Shown piece by piece: positions 30,020 to 40,890 of a stretch of 64,000 nucleotides of DNA. The DNA is taken from positions 73,435 through 137,434 of the forward strand of contig JAJEAN010000007.1 of assembly GCA_022822725.1 (NCBI GenBank). The letters are read 5' to 3'. The notes under the pieces are model-generated. The model worked only from the letters and a program-made list of their open reading frames with translations. It was not told the DNA's origin and ran no database searches. The position numbers and the translations under genes were made by a program. Source of the stretch: Candidatus Latescibacterota bacterium (lineage in GTDB: Bacteria > JAAXHH01). The stretch's first letter is position 1. The number at the start of each line of letters is the position of its first letter.

Positions 30020-31978
30020 ATGCCGACCGATTCAAACCAGGTTTCACCCTCCATCCGGACCGCTAACGGCCTGACCCCCAGGGTGCTCATCCTGGGCAGC
30101 ATGCTCGCCGTGTTCATCGCGATCTGGACGCCCCACACCAATTTCGTCATGCACGGCCCGAGGCTCACCCTGAGCCATCTCTCGATCGCGGCGCTTGTGT
30201 CGTTCCTCATCGTGATCTCCTGCGTGCAGATGCCCCTGCGCAGGTGGTGGCCCGTACGGGCGTTTTCGGCGGGTGAACTGGCCGTGCTCTTCGTCTTCTG
30301 CCTGGTTTCATCCACGATTCCCGGCAGGGCCTTCGTCGACTATTTCATAGGCATCCTGGCGTCGCCGTTCTACTACGCCACGCCGGAGAACCGGTGGGCG
30401 GACACCTTCTTCCCCCATCTGCCGGGATGGCTGGTCGTCCGGGACGACCTCGGGGCCGCGACGGGGTTCTACGAAGGCGCCGGCCAGAGCGTACTGCTGT
30501 GGGTCGACTGGATCGTTCCCCTCTTCTGGTGGATGTGCATGCTGGCGGCGCTGTTCCTGGTCATGGCCTGCATATCGGTGATCTTCCGCCGGCAGTGGGT
30601 CGAGCACGAGCGGCTGTCCTTCCCCGCGGTACAGATACCCTCGATGCTGATCGCGGAGACGACCCGGGGCGGGTTGGTGCCGGCGTTCATGGCGAACCGG
30701 TATTTCCAGGTAGGATTCGGACTCACCTTTGCCCTGCTGGCCTGGAACTGCCTGGCCTATTTCGGTTACGCCCCGGCCATACCCATCGGCGCACCCTTCC
30801 GAACGCAGATCCAGCTGGCGCAATCCGTCCCCGCGACCCAGGTGCAGTTCAACCTCTTCATGATGTGCTTCGCCTATTTCGCCGACCTCAAAGTGCTCTT
30901 CAGCATATGGTTCTTCCACCTTATCGCGTTGCTGGAAATCAGCCTGCTCAACCAGCTGGGCGTATCGGCCTCCGGCATGGCGGGAGGCTCCCAGTTCATC
31001 GTCAAGACCCAGCATTTCGGCGGGTTCTGGGTATTCGTGCTATGGGGCATGTGGATCGGGAGACATCACCTGAAGGCCGTGTGGCACAAGGCCCTGGGCC
31101 GCGCACCCGAACTCGACGATTCCATGGAATTGCTGTCCTACCGCACGGCATTGCTGGGACTGGCAGGCGGCCTGTGCTACCTGCTCTTCTGGCTGAACCG
31201 CATGGGGATGTCGGTCGACGTGGCGGTACTCTTCCTCGCGATCACCCTGGCGCTGTATATCGGCGTCACGCGCATCGTCGCCGAGACCGGGTTGGTCTTT
31301 CTCGACCTGCCGGTCAATTCGAACGAAATGACGGTGGGCGTCATCGGATCGACCAACCTGTCGCCGTCGAATCTCACCGCCCTGGGACTTACCCACGCCA
31401 TTTCCCACAACCACCGGGGTATCGGTCTTTCGTCATTGGTACACGGCCTGAAGGTCTCCGAGGGATTTACCCGGTCCAGGAAGGGTCTGTTCGCCGCGGT
31501 GGGGGTCGTGCTGATTCTGACCTTCATCGTTACGAACGGCTATACGATCTACGCCGGGGCATCCGGGACGGGCGCCCATGATTTCGCGCCGCTCCGGGCC
31601 GAAGGGTTCTACGACCAGCTGGCCACCTGGTTCAACAATCCCTACAATCTGTCCTACGAGGAGATCTATTTCCTTTTCCTGGGCGCCGGGATAACCACGG
31701 GTCTCCTTTTCATGCAGTACCGCTTCCCGGGCTGGCCCCTGCATCCCATCGGATACGTCGTCGCCTTCGCGGACATCATCAACTTCGAAATCACGTCGAT
31801 CTTCACGATCTGGCTGATCAAGGTATTGCTGCTGCGTCTGGGCGGGTTCGAAATGTACCGGAGGATGCAGCCGGCCGTGATCGGCGTGCTGCTGGGTTAC
31901 GCGGCGGGGGTGACCCTCTCCCTGGTCGTCGATGTCATCTGGTTCCCGGGCCAGGGACACAACGTGCACAACTGGTAG
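30020..31978 (+). CDS. DUF6785/DUF6784-type large membrane protein
   Basis: 652-residue polytopic membrane protein with a dozen or more hydrophobic helices. It shares with the protein at 32037-34028 the blocks SPxYYATPENRW, DWIVPLFWWM, IFRRQWVEHERLSFP, NRYFQVGF and a second-half YRTALLGLAGG, so the two are paralogues. I match this pattern to the DUF6785 (N-terminal) plus DUF6784 (C-terminal) family. Function is not established; a permease is plausible. I chose ATG 30020; the reading frame extends upstream without a ribosome site. Confidence 0.75.
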   Translation: MPTDSNQVSPSIRTANGLTPRVLILGSMLAVFIAIWTPHTNFVMHGPRLTLSHLSIAALVSFLIVISCVQMPLRRWWPVRAFSAGELAVLFVFCLVSSTIPGRAFVDYFIGILASPFYYATPENRWADTFFPHLPGWLVVRDDLGAATGFYEGAGQSVLLWVDWIVPLFWWMCMLAALFLVMACISVIFRRQWVEHERLSFPAVQIPSMLIAETTRGGLVPAFMANRYFQVGFGLTFALLAWNCLAYFGYAPAIPIGAPFRTQIQLAQSVPATQVQFNLFMMCFAYFADLKVLFSIWFFHLIALLEISLLNQLGVSASGMAGGSQFIVKTQHFGGFWVFVLWGMWIGRHHLKAVWHKALGRAPELDDSMELLSYRTALLGLAGGLCYLLFWLNRMGMSVDVAVLFLAITLALYIGVTRIVAETGLVFLDLPVNSNEMTVGVIGSTNLSPSNLTALGLTHAISHNHRGIGLSSLVHGLKVSEGFTRSRKGLFAAVGVVLILTFIVTNGYTIYAGASGTGAHDFAPLRAEGFYDQLATWFNNPYNLSYEEIYFLFLGAGITTGLLFMQYRFPGWPLHPIGYVVAFADIINFEITSIFTIWLIKVLLLRLGGFEMYRRMQPAVIGVLLGYAAGVTLSLVVDVIWFPGQGHNVHNW

Positions 31979-32001: not shown

Positions 32002-32037
32002 GCGAACGACTGGCTGGCGAACGACTGGCTGGCGAAC
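32002..32037. repeat. 15-bp tandem repeat abutting a stop codon
   Basis: gcgaacgactggctg occurs twice plus a partial copy, ending exactly at the stop codon of the minus-strand DUF6785 gene. Confidence 0.9.
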
Positions 32038-34028
32038 TAGAAGATCTCGGCGATATGCGGCGTGTCCGGAAAGTATAACGTATCGACGATGTAGGCGGCC
32101 AGGACGCCGACCACGTAACCGACGAGGATTCCCAGGAACAGGGGTTGCGCTTTCCGGTACAGCCGGACGCCGCCGATGCGGAGCAGGACGACCTGGACGA
32201 GCCAGGCGACGAACAGGGTGAAGGCAAGCCCCCTGATGGGCGCCGAGGCCCCGATGGCGAATCCGATAGGATTAAGCGGCCACCAGTAGAAGAGGTACCT
32301 GCCCAGGGCCAGCAGGGCGCTGACCGCCATGCCGCCCGCGAGAAACAGGATTTCGAGGGTGGTGACCTGCGTGGCGTTCTTCATCCACTTCACCACCAGG
32401 TCGTAAAACAGGTTTCCCGTGTTGCGCAGGTTGATGTGCAGGTTGTCCGCCCCTTCCGCGTAGCCGGAGTAGACGACGTATCCCGTCGAGATCGCCGTCC
32501 CGCAGACGAACGCGAGCATCACGAGCAGGAACAGCCGTCCGCGGTTCTCCCCGAGATAGTTCCTCCAGAAGGCTACGTGCGAAAGCCCGACCATGGTGAA
32601 GGTCCGCCAGTTCCGCGCGAAGGCGTTGGACAGACCGAGTCCCGTCAGCGTCGGACCGGACAGACTGGCCGAGCCCACCATGCCCACCGTGAAGGCATGG
32701 GCGTTGATCGGCAGGTCGAGATTGATCAGGCCCGCTTCGGCGAGGATGCGCGCGATGCCGAAATAGAACACCAGCAGGAAGAACATAAAAAGCACGGCGA
32801 CGGGGATGGAGAAACCGATGGCGTTCAACCAGGCGATCATGAAGAGCAGGCCCAGCAGCAGTCCGATGATCGCTGTTCGATAGGAGAACATCTCGTCTTC
32901 GTCTTTCAGGTTGCTTTCCCTCCCGAGGGTCTTTCGCAGGACGTCCCCGATGTGTTTCCGGGCCATCCATCCGCTGATCAGGGCGAACATGATCAGTCCG
33001 CCGCAGAACTGGATGGACACGAGCCCGCGGGGTACGATCGTTTCGGCGGGCGAGACCACGCCGATCCGGTTCAGCATGCCGGTTTCCAGGATACCCAGCA
33101 CCTGGAAGAACCAGACGCTGAACAGAATCTCGACGTTGACGAAAAAGGCGAAGCACAGGACGTAGGGAACGAGCCGGATGGCGATGGGCGGGAAGGCGGG
33201 ATCGATGACCACGTTGAATACCGGACCCGGCAGGGGGATGTGGGGCAGCACGCCCCAGAAGCCGATGATGTTCCAGGTCATGACGGCCAGGCTGGCCGTG
33301 AAGCCGACCTGGAAGAGCCGGTTGCCGAAGAGGGCCGGCCATCTCCCGGACGATCCGTTGTCGGTTTCGAGCAGGCGGAGCACCACTTCGCCCATGGGGA
33401 ACCTGAGCCGTTCGTTTTCCACCCACTGCTTCCGGAAGATCACGACCAGGCAGGCGCCGATGAAGAGCAGCGCGCCGAGGGCCGACATCCACCAGAAGAG
33501 CGGTATGATCCAGTCCCGCCAGGGAATCGGCATCCCGGACGGCCGTCCCGCGAAGAAATCGGAAACCTGCCCCTTGTCATTGGGGATGACCGCCCATTCC
33601 GGCAGGTAGGCGAAGAAGTGCGCCTCCCACTGGTTCTCCGGGCTGGCGAAGTAGTGTGGCGCGGTGATGACGCTGATGAGATAACGGACCATGCCCCAGT
33701 CGGGCACCATGGCCGCGATCATCCCCATGGCAAAGATGACCAGGAGTTCCGGCCGCGTGAGCGCGGCGTCCCGGTTTACGGAACGGATCAGCACGTTCGG
33801 AATGAGGACCAGGAAAAAATAGGGAATGACCAGGCACAGCGGCATCTGGGGGAAGGTCAGATAGTTGTAGTTCAGCTGTGCGGAGGCGTACTGTCCCCAG
33901 AAGGCGACGAAGCAGGCGAAGGCCAGACCCAGGGCGGCGGTTTTGAGGGAAATGGGTTTCACGGTCGGCTTGGTCATGCTTGGCCGGGCCTGGCCCGAGT
34001 GATTCCGCACGACCGTATCGCGTGTCAC
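32037..34028 (-). CDS. DUF6785/DUF6784-type large membrane protein, paralogue
   Basis: 663 residues (or 646 if started at ATG 33977), with many transmembrane helices. Blocks shared with the protein at 30020 include APHYFASPENQWEAHFF, DWIIPLFWWM, IFRKQWVENERLRFP and YRTAIIGLLLG. GTG 34028 overlaps the SDR stop codon (GTGA), which supports coupling, though AAGGAG is too close for that start. It is the last gene of a run sulfatase-isomerase-SDR-membrane protein, which suggests it imports the compound those enzymes process. That role is inference. Confidence 0.75.
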   Translation of the reverse strand: MTRDTVVRNHSGQARPSMTKPTVKPISLKTAALGLAFACFVAFWGQYASAQLNYNYLTFPQMPLCLVIPYFFLVLIPNVLIRSVNRDAALTRPELLVIFAMGMIAAMVPDWGMVRYLISVITAPHYFASPENQWEAHFFAYLPEWAVIPNDKGQVSDFFAGRPSGMPIPWRDWIIPLFWWMSALGALLFIGACLVVIFRKQWVENERLRFPMGEVVLRLLETDNGSSGRWPALFGNRLFQVGFTASLAVMTWNIIGFWGVLPHIPLPGPVFNVVIDPAFPPIAIRLVPYVLCFAFFVNVEILFSVWFFQVLGILETGMLNRIGVVSPAETIVPRGLVSIQFCGGLIMFALISGWMARKHIGDVLRKTLGRESNLKDEDEMFSYRTAIIGLLLGLLFMIAWLNAIGFSIPVAVLFMFFLLVFYFGIARILAEAGLINLDLPINAHAFTVGMVGSASLSGPTLTGLGLSNAFARNWRTFTMVGLSHVAFWRNYLGENRGRLFLLVMLAFVCGTAISTGYVVYSGYAEGADNLHINLRNTGNLFYDLVVKWMKNATQVTTLEILFLAGGMAVSALLALGRYLFYWWPLNPIGFAIGASAPIRGLAFTLFVAWLVQVVLLRIGGVRLYRKAQPLFLGILVGYVVGVLAAYIVDTLYFPDTPHIAEIF

Positions 34029-34804
34029 TCCTTGATGGAGGCCGTGCCGCGCTTGAGCCAGAAACCACCGTCAACGCGGAGGACTTCTCCGGTGATGTAG
34101 TCCGCGGCGTCGGAACAAAGAAAGGTGGCGGCCTTGCCCAGGTCCCCGATGGTACCCAGCCGGCCCCAGGGAAGCCGCCTGCCGCCCTCCTCGAGTTCCT
34201 GTTCGGTGGAGTACTGCCGCTCCCCCGGCGTGTCGGTCCACCCGGGTTCGATCACGTTCACGCGGATGCGGTGTTCCAGGAGTTCCAGGGCGATGATGGC
34301 CGCCATGTGGTTCATGCCGGCCTTGGCCGAAGAATAGGCGATCGAAGTGGGGAATGGCAGGAAGGACATGACCGAGCTGATGAAGAGGATGCTGCCGCCC
34401 TTCCCGCCGGCCGCCATCTTCCGGGCGCCGGCCTGGGCGACGTGGAAGGCGCCGAAGAGGCTGACGTCATAGGTTTTTCTTAGTTCATCCACGTCCATCT
34501 CGAGAAAGGGTTCCCGTGTAGAATAGTATGCGTTGGCCACGACGATATGGGGCCCGCCGAGTTCCTCCGCCGTCCGTTCCACCATGCCGTCCACCGCGTC
34601 CCGGTCCGACGCGTCGGCGCCGATGACAACCGCCCGCCGTCCCATGGCCCGGATTTCTTTCGCGACGGTTTCGCCGTCATCCCGATGGCGGAAGTAGTTG
34701 ACGGCGACGTCCGCCCCGGCGCGGGCCATTTCCAGTGCGATGCCTTTGCCGATCCCGCGGGAGGAACCGCTGATCAGCGCCGTCTTGCCTGAAAGGTCGA
34801 TCAT
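34025..34804 (-). CDS. SDR-family oxidoreductase in sulfatase operon
   Basis: Short-chain dehydrogenase of 259 residues. Cofactor motif SGSSRGIG (12-19), Ser143/144, Tyr157 and Lys161 (AYSSAKAG) intact, and the C-terminal EVLRVDGGFWLKR typical of FabG-like members. NYFRHRDD after strand 2 suggests NADP use. It lies between a sugar isomerase gene (85 bp upstream) and a DUF6785 gene that overlaps its stop codon. Likely oxidises a hydroxyl of the desulfated product; the substrate is unknown. Confidence 0.9.
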   Translation of the reverse strand: MIDLSGKTALISGSSRGIGKGIALEMARAGADVAVNYFRHRDDGETVAKEIRAMGRRAVVIGADASDRDAVDGMVERTAEELGGPHIVVANAYYSTREPFLEMDVDELRKTYDVSLFGAFHVAQAGARKMAAGGKGGSILFISSVMSFLPFPTSIAYSSAKAGMNHMAAIIALELLEHRIRVNVIEPGWTDTPGERQYSTEQELEEGGRRLPWGRLGTIGDLGKAATFLCSDAADYITGEVLRVDGGFWLKRGTASIKE

Positions 34805-34889
34805 GGTACCCTCGCGTCGAAATACGTGGTGACCGGACGGATATCCCAGACCGCCACGAACCCGGGCGGCCGACCGATCGGAAGCGGTT

Positions 34890-35651
34890 TCACAGTCCCA
34901 TTTCGGACATGTTGCGGTAGCTGATGGCGATGCTGTCGAAGGGATCGCCGGCGCAGGTGTCCTGCTCGACCACGTACCACTGGGCCCCGGCGCTCTCGCA
35001 GGCGGCGACGATGCCGGGCCAGTTCATGTTCCCCTCGCCGACCTCGGCCATCACCTGCTCCCTTCCCGACACGCCCAGGTCCTTGAAGTGGATGACCGGG
35101 CACCTGTTCCTGACCCGTTCGATCCAGTGAATCGGATCGCCCCCGCCGTACTGGATCCAGTAGGTGTCGATTTCAAAACACAGGGCGGGATCGCTGTCCT
35201 CGATGAGTATGGCCAGTCCGGTCCGGTCGCCGACGCGCACGAGTTCCGTATGGTGATTGTGGTAGCTGAAGGACATGCCGGCTTTCTTCAGCCTGAGCGC
35301 CACGGCAGACGCGTCCGCCGCGAACCGCGAGAACCCGTCCGGATCGTCCCAGTAGGACCGCGGCATGGAACCGACGGCGATATGCCCGCAACCCCACAGG
35401 CGGTGCTCCTCGATCACTTTGTCCGGTTCATCCTGCAACCGTTCGAAGGGCACGTGCGTGGCACAGACATGCAGGCCGGCGTCCCGGATCATGGTGCCGA
35501 GTTCCGCCGGGTCGACGGGACCGAGGGCCGAAAGCTGAATATGGTCATAACCGATGGACTTGACTTTTTTCAGGGTGTCCGCGATGTCGGCCGGCGTCTG
35601 CACGAAGTCGCGCAACGTATAGAGTGTAACGGCGATTTTGCTTGCTGCCAT
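34890..35651 (-). CDS. Sugar phosphate isomerase/epimerase-like TIM barrel
   Basis: AP-endonuclease-2/xylose-isomerase-like protein of 253 residues. Likely metal-site and barrel blocks are GYDHIQLSALG, SYHNHHTEL, CFEIDTYWI, VIHFKDLG and EVGEGNMNW, then VVEQDT. These enzymes interconvert ketoses, inososes or related sugars. Start set at ATG 35651 because GGAG sits just upstream; the frame extends five codons further. It begins 11 bp after the sulfatase stop codon, so cotranscription is nearly certain. Confidence 0.9.
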   Translation of the reverse strand: MAASKIAVTLYTLRDFVQTPADIADTLKKVKSIGYDHIQLSALGPVDPAELGTMIRDAGLHVCATHVPFERLQDEPDKVIEEHRLWGCGHIAVGSMPRSYWDDPDGFSRFAADASAVALRLKKAGMSFSYHNHHTELVRVGDRTGLAILIEDSDPALCFEIDTYWIQYGGGDPIHWIERVRNRCPVIHFKDLGVSGREQVMAEVGEGNMNWPGIVAACESAGAQWYVVEQDTCAGDPFDSIAISYRNMSEMGL

Positions 35652-35662
35652 CGAGGTCTCCT

Positions 35663-37087
35663 TCACGATTTCAGTTGTTCGAAAGCGGGCGAGTCGTCAT
35701 CCCAGGCGCCGCCGACGGGTCGCAGCTGGCCGGCACCGGACACCGGCCTGGTGCGGCCGTCCCGGTCCGGTACGGCGTACCGGTCGAACCAGTCCTCCAA
35801 CTCGCCGCGCAGCGTCCGGCGCCTGGCGGCGTATCCGGCATCGTCCGCAAGATTCGCCCGTTCGTCGGGATCATTTTCCAGGTCGTAGAGTTCGTCCGGC
35901 CCATCGGGATACCGGTGGACGTATTTCCACGATTCCGTGCGGATCATGCGCGTACCGCCGTATTCGTCGAATATCACGACGTGGTCCCGACCGGCGTCGG
36001 AAGCCTCGCCCCGTGTCGACCATTCAGGCCGGCACATCCAGGCGTCCACGGTGTTTCGCCCGGGCAGGTTGCGGTCCCGGGGCACGGGCAGATCCAGGTA
36101 GGACAGGAGCGTGGGCATGAAATCGTAGGCACTGATCATCGCCTGCTGCACGGCACCTTCGGGCAGGCGCCCGGGTTGACTGACGAGCGCGGGAACCAGG
36201 ATGGAACGTTCGTACATGTTCAACGGGCTGGTTCCGTTGCCCTTGCCCCAGAACCCGTGGTGTCCCAGGCTGAACCCATTGTCGCTCAGGAAGATCACCA
36301 GGGTGTTCTCCCGGATGCCGTGATGATCGAGCCGGTCCAGCAACCGGCCGACGTCAAGGTCCATGGCCGTGACGGCCGCAAAGTAGCCCTTCAGGCTTTC
36401 CCGGTCACCCATGCATTCGCGGGTCAGGCCGCCCGCCCAGGGGTGGACGGGCTCCTGGGGGCAGGAGTCGAATGGGCAGTCGTCGTAGGAATCTACGATG
36501 TCCTGCGGATGTCCCGTCCACGGACTGTGCGGCGCCGTATAATGAACGCTTAAGTAGAACGGGTCTTCCTGGTTGGCGTGCCGGTCGATGTAGGCCACCG
36601 CGTCGTCGGTAATGACGTTCGTGACGTATCCCGGCTCGGTGACCGGGACGCCGTTCCGTACCATGGGCGCATCATTATAGGGCCCGCCGCCGAACTGGTG
36701 GGTGAACCAGTGGGAGAACCCGTGCTGGGGCAGGGTGCTGTTGCCCAGGTGCCATTTTCCGCTGAGGCCACATCGCCAACCGTGGGCCGCGAGCACGTCG
36801 GTGTACGCCGTTTCTCCCTCGAGGTAGGAAGCCGCGCCGTCGCCGATATTGCCTCCCTTGATCCAGTCGTGCACGCCATGCTGGGAGGGGATCCGCCCGG
36901 TCAACAGCGTCGCGCGGCTGGGTGAACAGACGGGCGTGGCCACGAAGAACCGGTCGAAGCGAACCCCGGTCGCCGCGATCCGGTCGATGTTCGGCGTACG
37001 GATTTCCCCGTTGCCATAGCAGCCCGCCGCCCAGACGCCCTGGTCGTCGGTGAGGATGCAAAGTACGTTCGGTCGCGGTGTTGCCAT
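35663..37087 (-). CDS. Arylsulfatase-type sulfatase
   Basis: Type I sulfatase of 474 residues with formylglycine site CSPSR (Cys54). Metal-binding blocks: NVLCILTDDQG at the N-terminus, GKWHLG and LSDNGFSLGHHG. No signal peptide, so probably cytoplasmic, although family members are often exported. First gene of a four-gene minus-strand run with an isomerase, an SDR and a DUF6785 protein. An anaerobic or FGE-type formylglycine maturase is needed, and none is encoded in this window. Confidence 0.92.
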   Translation of the reverse strand: MATPRPNVLCILTDDQGVWAAGCYGNGEIRTPNIDRIAATGVRFDRFFVATPVCSPSRATLLTGRIPSQHGVHDWIKGGNIGDGAASYLEGETAYTDVLAAHGWRCGLSGKWHLGNSTLPQHGFSHWFTHQFGGGPYNDAPMVRNGVPVTEPGYVTNVITDDAVAYIDRHANQEDPFYLSVHYTAPHSPWTGHPQDIVDSYDDCPFDSCPQEPVHPWAGGLTRECMGDRESLKGYFAAVTAMDLDVGRLLDRLDHHGIRENTLVIFLSDNGFSLGHHGFWGKGNGTSPLNMYERSILVPALVSQPGRLPEGAVQQAMISAYDFMPTLLSYLDLPVPRDRNLPGRNTVDAWMCRPEWSTRGEASDAGRDHVVIFDEYGGTRMIRTESWKYVHRYPDGPDELYDLENDPDERANLADDAGYAARRRTLRGELEDWFDRYAVPDRDGRTRPVSGAGQLRPVGGAWDDDSPAFEQLKS

Positions 37088-37235
37088 GGGCTGCCTCGGG
37101 ATCGGGTGGTTACCCGGTATGAGATCGTAAGGTACGGGTCGAAGACGGCTGAAACGGCAAATTAGCGCGTCGCCGGAGGAATGTCACGGACATTATATTC
37201 CACCCAATTCGCGTTTGCCATGCGTCCGGCCCATC

Positions 37236-37341
37236 CCGTATATTGTCCCCCGCATGGCCGGTGGGGCGGAGGACGTGGCAGGGGCGCGCCGGAATGCCCG
37301 GTGCCGTATATTGTCCCCCGCATGGCCGGCGGGGCGGAGGG
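37236..37341 (+). repeat. 37-bp direct repeat upstream of a Gfo/Idh/MocA gene
   Basis: Two copies (37236-37272 and 37304-37341, one mismatch in the shared part; core ccgtatattgtcccccgcat) lie 68 bp apart. The second copy carries the ggcggagg that serves as ribosome site for the gene starting at 37349. Confidence 0.92.
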
Positions 37342-37348
37342 ATGTGTC

Positions 37349-38380
37349 GTGATACGAACGGGCATCGTGGGTTACGGACTGGCGGGACGGCTTTTCCACG
37401 CCTACCTGGTTTCGCGGACCGAGGGGTTGAAACTCGCCGCCGTTGCCAGCCGGGACCCTGAGCGCCGGGCGACGGCCCGTCGGGACTGGTCCGTGGATAC
37501 CCACAGGACCCTGACCGATCTCCTGGCGGACGACGGCATCCGGTTGATCATCCTGGCCACGCCTCACCATACCCACGCGGCCCTGGCCATCGAGGCCATG
37601 GAGGCCGGGAAACACGTGGTCGTCGACAAGGTCATGTGCCTGTCGGCCGCCGAAGCCGAGGAGATGATCGCGGTCAGCCAGCGTCGCGGGGTCATACTGA
37701 GCGTCTTCCACAACCGCCGCTGGGACTGGGGTTATCTGACGGTGCGCAAGGCGGTGGAGGATGGCCTGCTGGGTGATCCCTTCCTGGTCGAAAGGGCGGT
37801 GCACCGGTTCCGGGCTTCCAGGGGCTGGCGGACGAGCCGGTCGGAAAGCGGCGGCCTGCTATACGACTGGGGCGCCCACCTGGTAGACCAGGGGCTGCAG
37901 CTGCTGAACGCCCGTCCCGCGGCGGTATATTGCAAAGGCCACAAACTCCTGTGGGAAGGGGACATAGACGATCATGTCACCTGTACGCTGTATTTCGAAA
38001 CGGGTGCCGAGTACCGGATGGAAATCAGCAATCTCTCGCATATTTCGAAGCCCCACTGGTACGTGCTGGGTACCCGGGGGTCCCTCGTAAAGACCGGTCT
38101 CGATCCCCAGGAAGACTGGATGAAGAAGGGCAGGATCGAGGATGCGGTGGAGGCTCCGGAAGACCGTGTCCGGGTGGCCGCGGAAAGGGACGGGGAGGTA
38201 GCGGAGGCGGTCCTGGACCCGGTGAAAGGCAGTTGGGTGGATTATTACCGGAATATCGAGGCCGTGCTGACCGAAGGCGCCGAACTGGCCGTCCAGCCCC
38301 ACGAGATGCTGGAACTGATGAAGGTACTGGACGCCGCCACGGAATCCCGTGAAACCGGCCGCGTCATTTCGATGAAATGA
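37349..38380 (+). CDS. Gfo/Idh/MocA-family oxidoreductase (YdgJ-like)
   Basis: NAD(P)-dependent dehydrogenase of 343 residues. I start it at GTG 37349 (MIRTGIVGYGLAGRLFH), with GGAGG eight bases upstream; a longer frame upstream runs through repeats. Rossmann motif GYGLAG and the catalytic-region block YDWGAHLVDQ are clear. The usual EKP is DKV (VVDKVMCLS), keeping the lysine but losing Glu and Pro. Substrate unknown; polyol or sugar oxidation is the family norm. Confidence 0.88.
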   Translation: MIRTGIVGYGLAGRLFHAYLVSRTEGLKLAAVASRDPERRATARRDWSVDTHRTLTDLLADDGIRLIILATPHHTHAALAIEAMEAGKHVVVDKVMCLSAAEAEEMIAVSQRRGVILSVFHNRRWDWGYLTVRKAVEDGLLGDPFLVERAVHRFRASRGWRTSRSESGGLLYDWGAHLVDQGLQLLNARPAAVYCKGHKLLWEGDIDDHVTCTLYFETGAEYRMEISNLSHISKPHWYVLGTRGSLVKTGLDPQEDWMKKGRIEDAVEAPEDRVRVAAERDGEVAEAVLDPVKGSWVDYYRNIEAVLTEGAELAVQPHEMLELMKVLDAATESRETGRVISMK

Positions 38381-38394
38381 GGATCGGCGGGAAT

Positions 38395-38494
38395 CCGCAA
38401 CCCGGACGAGTGATCTGCAACCCGAACGAGTGATCTGCGACCCAGGCGTACGATCTGCAACCCGGACGAGTGATATGCAATCCAGGCGAATGGT
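38395..38494 (+). repeat. 20-bp tandem repeat, five copies, last contains a start codon
   Basis: Units ctgcaacccgaacgagtgat and variants start at 38395, 38415, 38435, 38455 and 38475. In the fifth copy ctg becomes atg, which is the likely start codon of the DUF1611 gene. Confidence 0.96.
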
Positions 38495-39527
38495 AATACT
38501 CACCGAGGGCCAGCTGGGCACGTTCTCCTCAAAGACGGCTGCGTCACTGATCCGGTACAGGTCCGAGGAAACCGTGGCGGTGCTCGACGGCGTGCACGCC
38601 GGCCGGCGCCTGGAAGACGTGCTCGAGGTGGGCAAGGGCATCCCGGTCGTGGCGACGTTGCGGGAAGCGCTTGCCTTCGACCCGACCTCGCTGGTCATCG
38701 GCATCGCGACGCCGGGCGGCGTCCTGCCTGAAGACTGGCGGACCGTCATCCACGAGGCCATCGAGCACGGACTCGAGGTGATAAACGGGCTCCACACATT
38801 TCTGAACGAAGACGAGGGATTCGCCCGGCATGCCGGGCAGAAAGGCGTAAGGCTGTGGGACGTGCGGCAGCCGCCCGGAGACCTGGACGTGGGGCGGCAC
38901 CTGGTCCACGGCCTGCCGAACCTGCGTGTACTGACCGTCGGCGCCGACTCCAGCATCGGCAAGAAGATCGCCGCGATCGAAATAGACCGCGCGGCCCGCG
39001 ACTCAGGCTGGGACGCCGAGTTCGTGGCCACCGGGCAGACCGGTATCATGATTGCCGGATCGGGCATCGCGGTGGACACCGTGGCGGCGGACTACATCTC
39101 GGGCGCGGTGGAAAGACTCGTGCTGGAACGCAAACACCGGGAACTGCTGGTTATCGAAGGCCAGGGTACGATTCTGCATCCTTCATACTCGGGCGTATCG
39201 CTCGGGTTGCTTCACGGCGCGGCGCCGCAGGCCCTGGTACTGTGCCACCAGCCGGGCAGGGACGTGATGCGCAACGTCCCGGTGGATGTTCCGGACTACG
39301 AGGAGTTAATCCGCGTCCACGAGGCCGTAGCCCGGCCGTTATTCCCCTGCCGGGTCGTCGCCGTATCGCTCAACTGCTTCGGCATGTCCCTGGAGGATGC
39401 CAGGCGCGAGGTGGACCGCGTAGAACAGGAGACCGGCCTTCCGGCGACGGACTGCGTGAAATTCGGTTGCGGTCCCATTCTCGATGCGCTGGCGCCATTG
39501 AGGACCGCGAAGGGGAATACCCCATGA
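38475..39527 (+). CDS. DUF1611 protein (DgcN-like N-acetyltransferase)
   Basis: 350-residue member of the DUF1611 family: Rossmann-like N-terminal part (MVILTEGQLGTFSSKTA, IGIATPGG) and a P-loop NTPase-like part with VGADSSIGKK and VIEGQGTILHP. Members characterised in marine bacteria (DgcN) acetylate D-glutamate for its catabolism with an enolase-superfamily racemase. An enolase-superfamily gene lies at 46788, but not adjacent. ATG 38475 lies in the last copy of a 20-bp repeat; ATG 38490 is an alternative. Confidence 0.8.
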   Translation: MQSRRMVILTEGQLGTFSSKTAASLIRYRSEETVAVLDGVHAGRRLEDVLEVGKGIPVVATLREALAFDPTSLVIGIATPGGVLPEDWRTVIHEAIEHGLEVINGLHTFLNEDEGFARHAGQKGVRLWDVRQPPGDLDVGRHLVHGLPNLRVLTVGADSSIGKKIAAIEIDRAARDSGWDAEFVATGQTGIMIAGSGIAVDTVAADYISGAVERLVLERKHRELLVIEGQGTILHPSYSGVSLGLLHGAAPQALVLCHQPGRDVMRNVPVDVPDYEELIRVHEAVARPLFPCRVVAVSLNCFGMSLEDARREVDRVEQETGLPATDCVKFGCGPILDALAPLRTAKGNTP

Positions 39528-39546
39528 TCAGGTCAGAGAGGGCACG

Positions 39547-40890
39547 ATGAACATCCGGATACTGTCCGCCGAAGAGGCCGGGGCGAGCATCCTGCGACGG
39601 CGTCCGCTGAACGAGTCCATGCACTCGCCGGAGATCGAAGCACGGAACAGGGCACTGTTCGGCGAGCCGCTGACGGCGGAACAGGCGGTAGCCAGGATCA
39701 TCGACGATGTCCGGGAAAACGGGGATGATGCGGTCAGGCGGTACGCCCGTCTGCTGGACGGAAGCGCCCCGGAGACCTTCGAGGTCCCCGGATCCGAAAT
39801 CGACGAGGCAGCCGCATCGCTGCCTTCCGGGTTGCACGATGCCCTGGAAACCGCGGCCGACCGCATACGGTCTTTTCACGCGCGGCAGCCGTCCGAATCC
39901 TGGACGCACTGGGACGACGAGGGCGGCACGGGCCAGATTGTCCGGCCGCTGGACCGGGTGGGCGTCTACGTACCGGGCGGAGGCGCCGCCTATCCCTCCT
40001 CGCTGCTGATGGCCGTCATCCCTGCCCGGGTGGCCGGCGTACGAGAGGTGGTCGTGGCTACGCCGCCCGGAAGGGACGGTACGGTGCCGCCAGCCGTGCT
40101 GGCCGCGGCTTCCGTGGCGGGTGCGGACGCGGTCTACCGCATCGGCGGCGCCCAGGCGATCGCGGCGATGGCCCATGGCACCGGGACAGTCCCCCGTGTC
40201 GACAAGATCGTGGGGCCGGGGAACGTCTTCGTGACCCTGGCAAAGAGACAGGTGTACGGGATCGTGGATATAGACCAACTCGCCGGGCCCACCGAGACCC
40301 TGCTCATCGCCGACGAGACGGCCAGCCCGGATCTCGCGGCGGCCGACCTGCTGGCGCAGGCCGAGCACGATGCGATGGCGAGCGCCATACTGATCACGCC
40401 TTCGTCCACGCTGGCCCGGGCGGTGCAGCAGGCCGTGAAGGGGCAACTGACCGGGTTGGACCGGGCGGACACCATCCGTTCATCCCTTGCGCAGAATGGA
40501 GGGATCGTGCTCGTATCGGACCTGGAAGAGGCGGTCGTTCTGGCCAATGCCTACGCACCGGAGCACCTGTGCCTGCTGGTGGCGGAACCCTGGCCGCTGG
40601 TGGACGGGATCCAGAACGCCGGGGGGATCTTCGTGGGAGAACATTCCTCCGAGGCCCTGGGCGACTACGTCACCGGTCCAAGCCACGTCATGCCCACCGG
40701 GGGCAGCGCCCGATTCCATTCTCCCTTGAGCGTCCGGGATTTTCTGAAGATCACCAGCCTGTTCGCCGTCAACGAACGGGCCGGGAAACGTCTGGGACCG
40801 GACGCGATCCGGCTCGCGGAGGCCGAAGGACTGTCGGCCCACGCCATGGCCATTCGACGGCGTCTTTCAAAAGACCGTAACGGGGACTGA
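39547..40890 (+). CDS. hisD: Histidinol dehydrogenase
   Basis: Oxidises histidinol to histidine in two NAD steps; 447 residues. Conserved blocks include GVYVPGGGAAYPSS, KIVGPGNVFV, LAGPTETLLIAD, the zinc ligands in QAEHD, APEHL, the Asp of ALGDYVTGPSHVMPTGG and the C-terminal GLSAHAMA His. All active-site positions I can place are intact. HpsN-type sulfopropanediol dehydrogenases belong to the same superfamily and remain an alternative given the catabolic setting. It follows the DUF1611 gene by 19 bp. Confidence 0.9.
   Translation: MNIRILSAEEAGASILRRRPLNESMHSPEIEARNRALFGEPLTAEQAVARIIDDVRENGDDAVRRYARLLDGSAPETFEVPGSEIDEAAASLPSGLHDALETAADRIRSFHARQPSESWTHWDDEGGTGQIVRPLDRVGVYVPGGGAAYPSSLLMAVIPARVAGVREVVVATPPGRDGTVPPAVLAAASVAGADAVYRIGGAQAIAAMAHGTGTVPRVDKIVGPGNVFVTLAKRQVYGIVDIDQLAGPTETLLIADETASPDLAAADLLAQAEHDAMASAILITPSSTLARAVQQAVKGQLTGLDRADTIRSSLAQNGGIVLVSDLEEAVVLANAYAPEHLCLLVAEPWPLVDGIQNAGGIFVGEHSSEALGDYVTGPSHVMPTGGSARFHSPLSVRDFLKITSLFAVNERAGKRLGPDAIRLAEAEGLSAHAMAIRRRLSKDRNGD

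Follow-up and report, generated by a model that had tools for sequence, protein, structure and literature searches.

A sulfatase operon of Candidatus Latescibacterota points to DUF6785 membrane proteins as probable OPT-fold permeases

The locus and its conservation

The window, the whole stretch of 64,000 nucleotides that was analysed, corresponds to positions 73435-137434 of contig C9 in the 3.8-Mb genome of a Candidatus Latescibacterota bacterium, called the source genome below. It holds a four-gene operon on the reverse strand, with a convergent and a divergent gene at its two ends:

30020..31978, + strand: DUF6785+DUF6784 paralogue, copy b, convergent with the operon (Pfam E 1.8e-112)
32037..33977 (upstream GTG alternative 34028), - strand: DUF6785+DUF6784 membrane protein, copy a, predicted OPT-fold permease (Pfam, structural model, Foldseek, profile comparison)
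34025..34804, - strand: SDR short-chain dehydrogenase/reductase (PF13561 E 2.3e-57; PDB relatives)
34890..35651 (alternative start 35666), - strand: xylose-isomerase-like TIM barrel of the sugar isomerase/epimerase type (PF01261)
35663..37087, - strand: type-I sulfatase with the Cys-type motif CSPSR (PF00884 E 1.7e-47)
37181..38380, + strand: Gfo/Idh/MocA oxidoreductase, divergent from the operon (Pfam; synteny)

A preliminary description of this DNA had placed a sulfatase, an isomerase/epimerase, an SDR and a DUF6785 protein on one strand and a DUF6785 paralogue convergent at 30020; our gene calls agree, with Pfam matches above cut-off for the four genes (32037-37087, - strand) and an open reading frame with a Pfam match for the paralogue. 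The sequence also bears out the gaps it gave, 11 bp between sulfatase and isomerase, which presumes an isomerase start at ATG 35651 (just 3' of an AAGGAG), and 85 bp at the next junction. The GTGA overlap that it noted between SDR and DUF6785 can be read in the sequence, but copy a probably does not begin at GTG 34028: in the 91% identical orthologue of locus L022 the frame corresponding to this start is interrupted by a stop, the orthologous reading frames of L020, L021 and L022 have their start at or close to the ATG equivalent to 33977, and codon usage favours that ATG. Translation thus probably starts at ATG 33977, which would leave a gap of about 47 bp after the SDR gene. Both DUF6785 proteins of the window, 34% identical to each other, exceed the gathering scores of PF20581 (DUF6785) and PF20580 (DUF6784), copy a with E-values of 8e-97 and 8.4e-21. 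NCBIfam holds no model for DUF6785, and a literature search on DUF6785, DUF6784 and PF20581 found no paper.

The locus has named relatives in MAGs that carry the label Candidatus Latescibacterota or Gemmatimonadetes. Five orthologous loci (L018, L021, L022, L023, L024) preserve the order and strand of the four genes, and four of them (L018, L021, L022, L024) continue from sulfatase, TIM barrel, SDR and DUF6785a into a convergent DUF6785b; two more (L019, L020) show the same arrangement as far as their contigs reach, the sulfatase being cut by the contig end. As the four genes are still kept at 72-78% identity in L023, a locus called marine here by inference from its sample name (ERR599008), the operon is an old unit. 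Copy b is retained in genus-level relatives and was not found in the L023 locus, which makes it a neighbour rather than a member of the core operon. On the other side, synteny with the operon is conserved for the Gfo/Idh/MocA gene and extends in relatives over the divergent Gfo/Idh, DUF1611 and histidinol dehydrogenase genes at 37181-40890. A reading of the last of these (39547-40890) as a HisD-like sulfonate dehydrogenase was rejected, the gene being the only HisD of the genome.

The fold of DUF6785 and its relation to OPT proteins

What kind of membrane protein is DUF6785? An AlphaFold2 model built from 36 family members (mean pLDDT 86.4, pTM 0.87) matched, in a Foldseek search of the PDB, a single entry at E <= 0.001, the barley importer HvYS1 (7wst; E 3.8e-8, prob 1.00), with TM-scores of 0.65/0.71, an rmsd of 6.5 and 11% identity, the next PDB match having an E-value of 0.07. 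The earlier proposal of a permease is thereby supported, as the predicted fold is that of a transporter of the OPT type and not enzyme-like. That DUF6785 is instead a membrane enzyme or a sensor finds nothing in its favour in the model or the Foldseek search and has against it both the confidently predicted transporter fold and the similarity to OPT profiles described below; we regard it as hardly credible.

The sequence relationship is distant. The Pfam OPT profile PF03169 scores 18.5 bits (hmmscan) or 20.3 bits (genome search) on the best DUF6785 protein of the source genome, and none of these proteins reaches its gathering score of 25.8 bits. When every gene predicted in the loci was searched with an OPT profile assembled from unrelated genomes, the top 19 non-OPT matches were all DUF6785 proteins, the window protein with an E-value of 2.2e-4. 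In the reverse direction, from DUF6785 to OPT, the results diverge: with PF20581 the OPT protein of genome G184 scores 28.8 bits against a cut-off of 25 in the genome search, a match unlisted in the hmmscan of the same reading frame, and a profile from A1 gives 18.9 bits (E 2.5e-5). Profile-profile comparison with hhalign of 71 DUF6785 sequences against OPT yielded E-values of 1.6e-7 and 4.8e-11 in the two directions, over about 545 columns, against a best value of 0.029 over 57 columns for 23 multi-TM decoys, which entered as single sequences and not as profiles. For this reason, and because OPT proteins entered singly mostly had poor scores as well, the decoys are not a fully matched control. 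Indeed, single OPT sequences were mostly no better than decoys against the DUF6785 profile, the exceptions being the G184 OPT protein and the family X described below. Significance came with deeper alignments: an earlier comparison of 36 DUF6785 with 6 OPT sequences had been weak (P 0.017), and a sequence search of the PDB with the 36-sequence DUF6785 profile gave no match even at E 10.

Since the profile similarity and the predicted fold point the same way, we take DUF6785 for a divergent offshoot of the OPT superfamily, lying outside the Pfam OPT family as its cut-off defines it. HvYS1 is a proton-coupled symporter for which an elevator model, core Asp residues and Fe(III)-DMA uptake data have been described (PMC9691689). 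By analogy with this iron-phytosiderophore importer, DUF6785 with its accompanying DUF6784 should be a secondary transporter of the inner membrane, presumably coupled to ions and inwardly directed, in which a core domain would most likely move, elevator-like, against a scaffold domain.

Operon enzymes, neighbourhoods and candidate cargo

What, then, could be transported? The first gene of the operon encodes, by its PF00884 match above cut-off and its CxPSR motif (CSPSR), a type-I sulfatase, whose best solved relatives are of the N-acetylglucosamine-6-sulfatase type. By a crude hydropathy test for signal peptides, 11 sulfatases from the stretches of the source genome that were examined, one of them with an uncertain start, have no N-terminal hydrophobic stretch (maximal 12-residue hydropathy 0.27-1.86, compared with 2.8-3.2 in two exported controls). 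The window sulfatase is thus apparently cytoplasmic, and if so, its substrate must be taken up with the sulfate still attached, in line with a permease gene in the same operon. The TIM barrel (PF01261 40.2 bits, cut-off 31.1) has sugar and sugar-phosphate isomerases and epimerases as its closest solved chains, and the SDR reaches no NCBIfam equivalog cut-off. That the TIM barrel might serve a 3-keto-glycoside route was also considered and found unsupported, the enzyme BT2157 being a DUF1080 protein (PMC9007349). The path encoded by the operon is without kinase or aldolase. In the scheme that we favour, copy a (32037-33977) would import a small sulfate-bearing carbohydrate derivative, which sulfatase, TIM barrel and SDR might then desulfate, isomerise and oxidise. 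The joint proposition, that DUF6785 is an OPT-fold permease family and that copy a feeds such a compound to the operon enzymes, seems likely to us, mostly on account of its permease part; the import of a sulfated carbohydrate derivative by copy a, taken alone, we put at just under an even chance.

The preliminary description had further argued that the enzymes lack a transporter unless DUF6785 provides it. None other is indeed encoded in the window operon, but the argument is weakened by the L023 operon, where a 410-aa reading frame resembling, by eye, an MFS transporter (L023:5045-6277) is inserted between sulfatase and TIM barrel. Such a protein could be the actual importer and DUF6785 an exporter of some by-product, for example sulfate or a metabolite at a dead end, in keeping with the presence of both in L023; however, the window operon has no equivalent of the MFS-like reading frame, and we know of no established exporter with an OPT fold, so that we consider this quite improbable.

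Import by DUF6785, the reading we prefer, draws further on the surroundings of its other copies. Neighbours were surveyed in individual genome stretches with genes predicted by a custom gene caller. All 16 genomes placed in the phylum have DUF6785, with 11-29 matches each, and the source genome has 16 copies along with 30 sulfatases and at least 37 PF01261 TIM barrels. A same-strand sulfatase lies within 3 kb of 4 of these 16 copies (0.49 expected, p 0.001), as does a same-strand TIM barrel (4/16; 0.64 expected, p 0.003), the barrel of the window, which the genome search had missed, having been added to the count by hand. With the window copies excluded, a rotation test finds one or the other on the same strand within 3 kb of 6 of 14 copies (0.89 expected, p 0.001), and within 1 kb of 5 of 14 (0.5 expected). 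Across all genomes examined, the families most often met among 108 operon neighbours are Sulfatase (4), PF01261 (4), PhyH (4), SDR (3) and BNR (3), of which only PhyH (3) appears among the 25 commonest of 109 control genes. Outside the phylum, DUF6785 is found next to genes for the glucuronate isomerase UxaC, a GH42-type enzyme, the phosphodiester glycosidase NAGPA, PfkB and PF01261 proteins, and in an unrelated genome family (G054, L134) a sulfatase stands directly upstream of it. The G054 sulfatase starts, as read from the sequence, with a twin-arginine-type leader, so that desulfation there would precede import. As the copies linked to sulfatases are not united in a single clade of the tree, the pairing of DUF6785 with sulfatases originated or was retained repeatedly.

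The neighbourhood survey that had been proposed as a check thus finds catabolic genes recurring beside other DUF6785 copies, in the source genome and elsewhere; across the family the association is suggestive but not strong, with no catabolic gene beside many of the distant copies. The family has probably expanded in the phylum into many copies that are often tied to different sets of catabolic enzymes. Its OPT-like fold and the copies beside sugar-degrading and desulfating enzymes make DUF6785 very probably a permease for nutrient uptake. The cargo first suggested, sulfated or polyol compounds, survives as one of several readings for copy a but is too narrow for the family, for beyond the four sulfatase-linked copies others in the source genome adjoin sialidase-like BNR (two copies), ceramidase-like, phosphoglucomutase, isomerase or M28-peptidase genes. 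Two side observations concern further neighbours: a sialidase-like BNR gene, 67% identical between the two, adjoins DUF6785 in two genera (L026:11287-12372, L085:2405-3457), and genes for PorV-like outer-membrane proteins directly adjoin it in two distant genomes (L135:8320-9438 and L139:8601-9620, Pfam being run on L139 only).

These neighbours bear on two other views of the cargo. The compound taken up by the OPT-fold permease could be unsulfated, a sugar, sugar acid or oligosaccharide, with the sulfatase serving another pool or only some substrates, as might be suggested by the BNR genes beside two source-genome copies and by the UxaC, GH42-type, NAGPA, PfkB and, without a sulfatase, PF01261 genes that stand beside other copies and in distant genomes; against this, the window sulfatase is the first gene of the operon, is present in every orthologous locus where the contig extends that far and has no signal peptide, and we hold an unsulfated cargo to be rather unlikely. 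Classical OPT substrates are peptides and metal chelates, not sugars, and DUF6785 might move these while its catabolic neighbours are incidental. The predicted OPT fold would agree with such a role, as would the one subgroup of DUF6785 whose genes immediately precede an M28-peptidase/FtsX fusion gene in three genera (the source genome, G012, G198) and the Fe(III)-deoxymugineic acid carried by HvYS1 (PMC9691689). The excess of sulfatase and TIM-barrel neighbours and the conservation of the operon are, however, hard to call incidental, which renders a classical cargo improbable.

Family X and comparison with known systems

A second protein family, here called X (about 660 aa, no Pfam match), was first noticed beside DUF6785 in three genomes. 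Of 385 genomes, exactly the 29 with full DUF6785 matches contain it and the rest lack it, the additional DUF6785-profile matches in G170, G184 (an OPT protein) and G350 being partial or weak and outside the 29; the genomes with both families are related to each other, yet the pair still spans about 12 separate families. The AlphaFold2 model of X (pLDDT 77, pTM 0.82) again matches only HvYS1 in the PDB at E <= 0.001 (1.1e-10 and 4.9e-10). In nine genomes of several families X lies beside or near a gene fusing an M28 peptidase to FtsX, which in three of the nine has DUF6785 immediately upstream, and two of the three source-genome copies as well as that of L097 are not beside such a gene. The genes concerned are:

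G000:C9:1048502-1050439, 445665-447602, 2077607-2079553: family X, copies of the source genome
L097:13127-15112, L146:11876-13879: family X, copies of other genomes
L204:7963-12531, L146:6895-11748, L103:2929-7620, L208-L213: M28-peptidase/FtsX-MacB fusion genes, 1460-2456 aa

X and DUF6785 thus share their predicted fold and their 29 genomes; X is a separate sequence family without a Pfam match, has fewer copies per genome and is typically found beside the M28-FtsX gene. We tentatively suggest that the two could be unrecognised bacterial branches of OPT that always occur together, with DUF6785 supplying a many-copy set of importers of carbohydrates and organosulfates and X working alongside an M28-peptidase/FtsX machine. 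If so, OPT-fold transporters would be a major route of nutrient uptake in uncultured bacteria, reaching beyond peptides and metal chelates. For DUF6785 itself, a Pfam family of unknown function with 11-29 matches per genome of the phylum, the analysis offers a testable identity as an OPT-fold transporter and suggests a way by which sulfated or modified sugars may be taken up. The OPT superfamily, known mainly for carrying peptides, glutathione and iron chelates in plants and fungi, would thereby be extended into bacterial carbohydrate catabolism.

How does the operon compare with systems already described? Its sulfatase shares the PF00884 and SGSH_C domains and the CxPSR motif with the N-acetylglucosamine-6-sulfatase group (PDB 5g2v), but has no obvious signal peptide and is encoded together with a TIM barrel, an SDR and a predicted DUF6785 permease, in a genome that has a radical-SAM maturase (anSME; TIGR03942 496 bits, above cut-off) and no FGE (PF03781). 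That maturase gene, the only one of its kind in the genome, stands beside sulfatase genes at G000:C9:302418-308089. The TIM barrel recalls myo-inositol catabolism through its weak similarity to IolE (TIGR04379); its 48.1 bits are far below the equivalog cut-off of 290 and the window operon is without the partners of iol operons, so that we do not call it IolE. The closest parallel for DUF6785 is the HvYS1/YSL branch of OPT (PDB 7wst/7wsr; PF03169), with which it has in common its predicted fold, a collinear profile similarity over the full length, a size of about 650 aa and many TM helices. It differs from this branch in its sequence, which is 11% identical to HvYS1, falls below the PF03169 gathering score and defines Pfam families of its own (PF20581/PF20580), in its multiplicity within single genomes, and in the company of its genes, many of which adjoin those for sugar and sulfate catabolism rather than iron or peptide genes.
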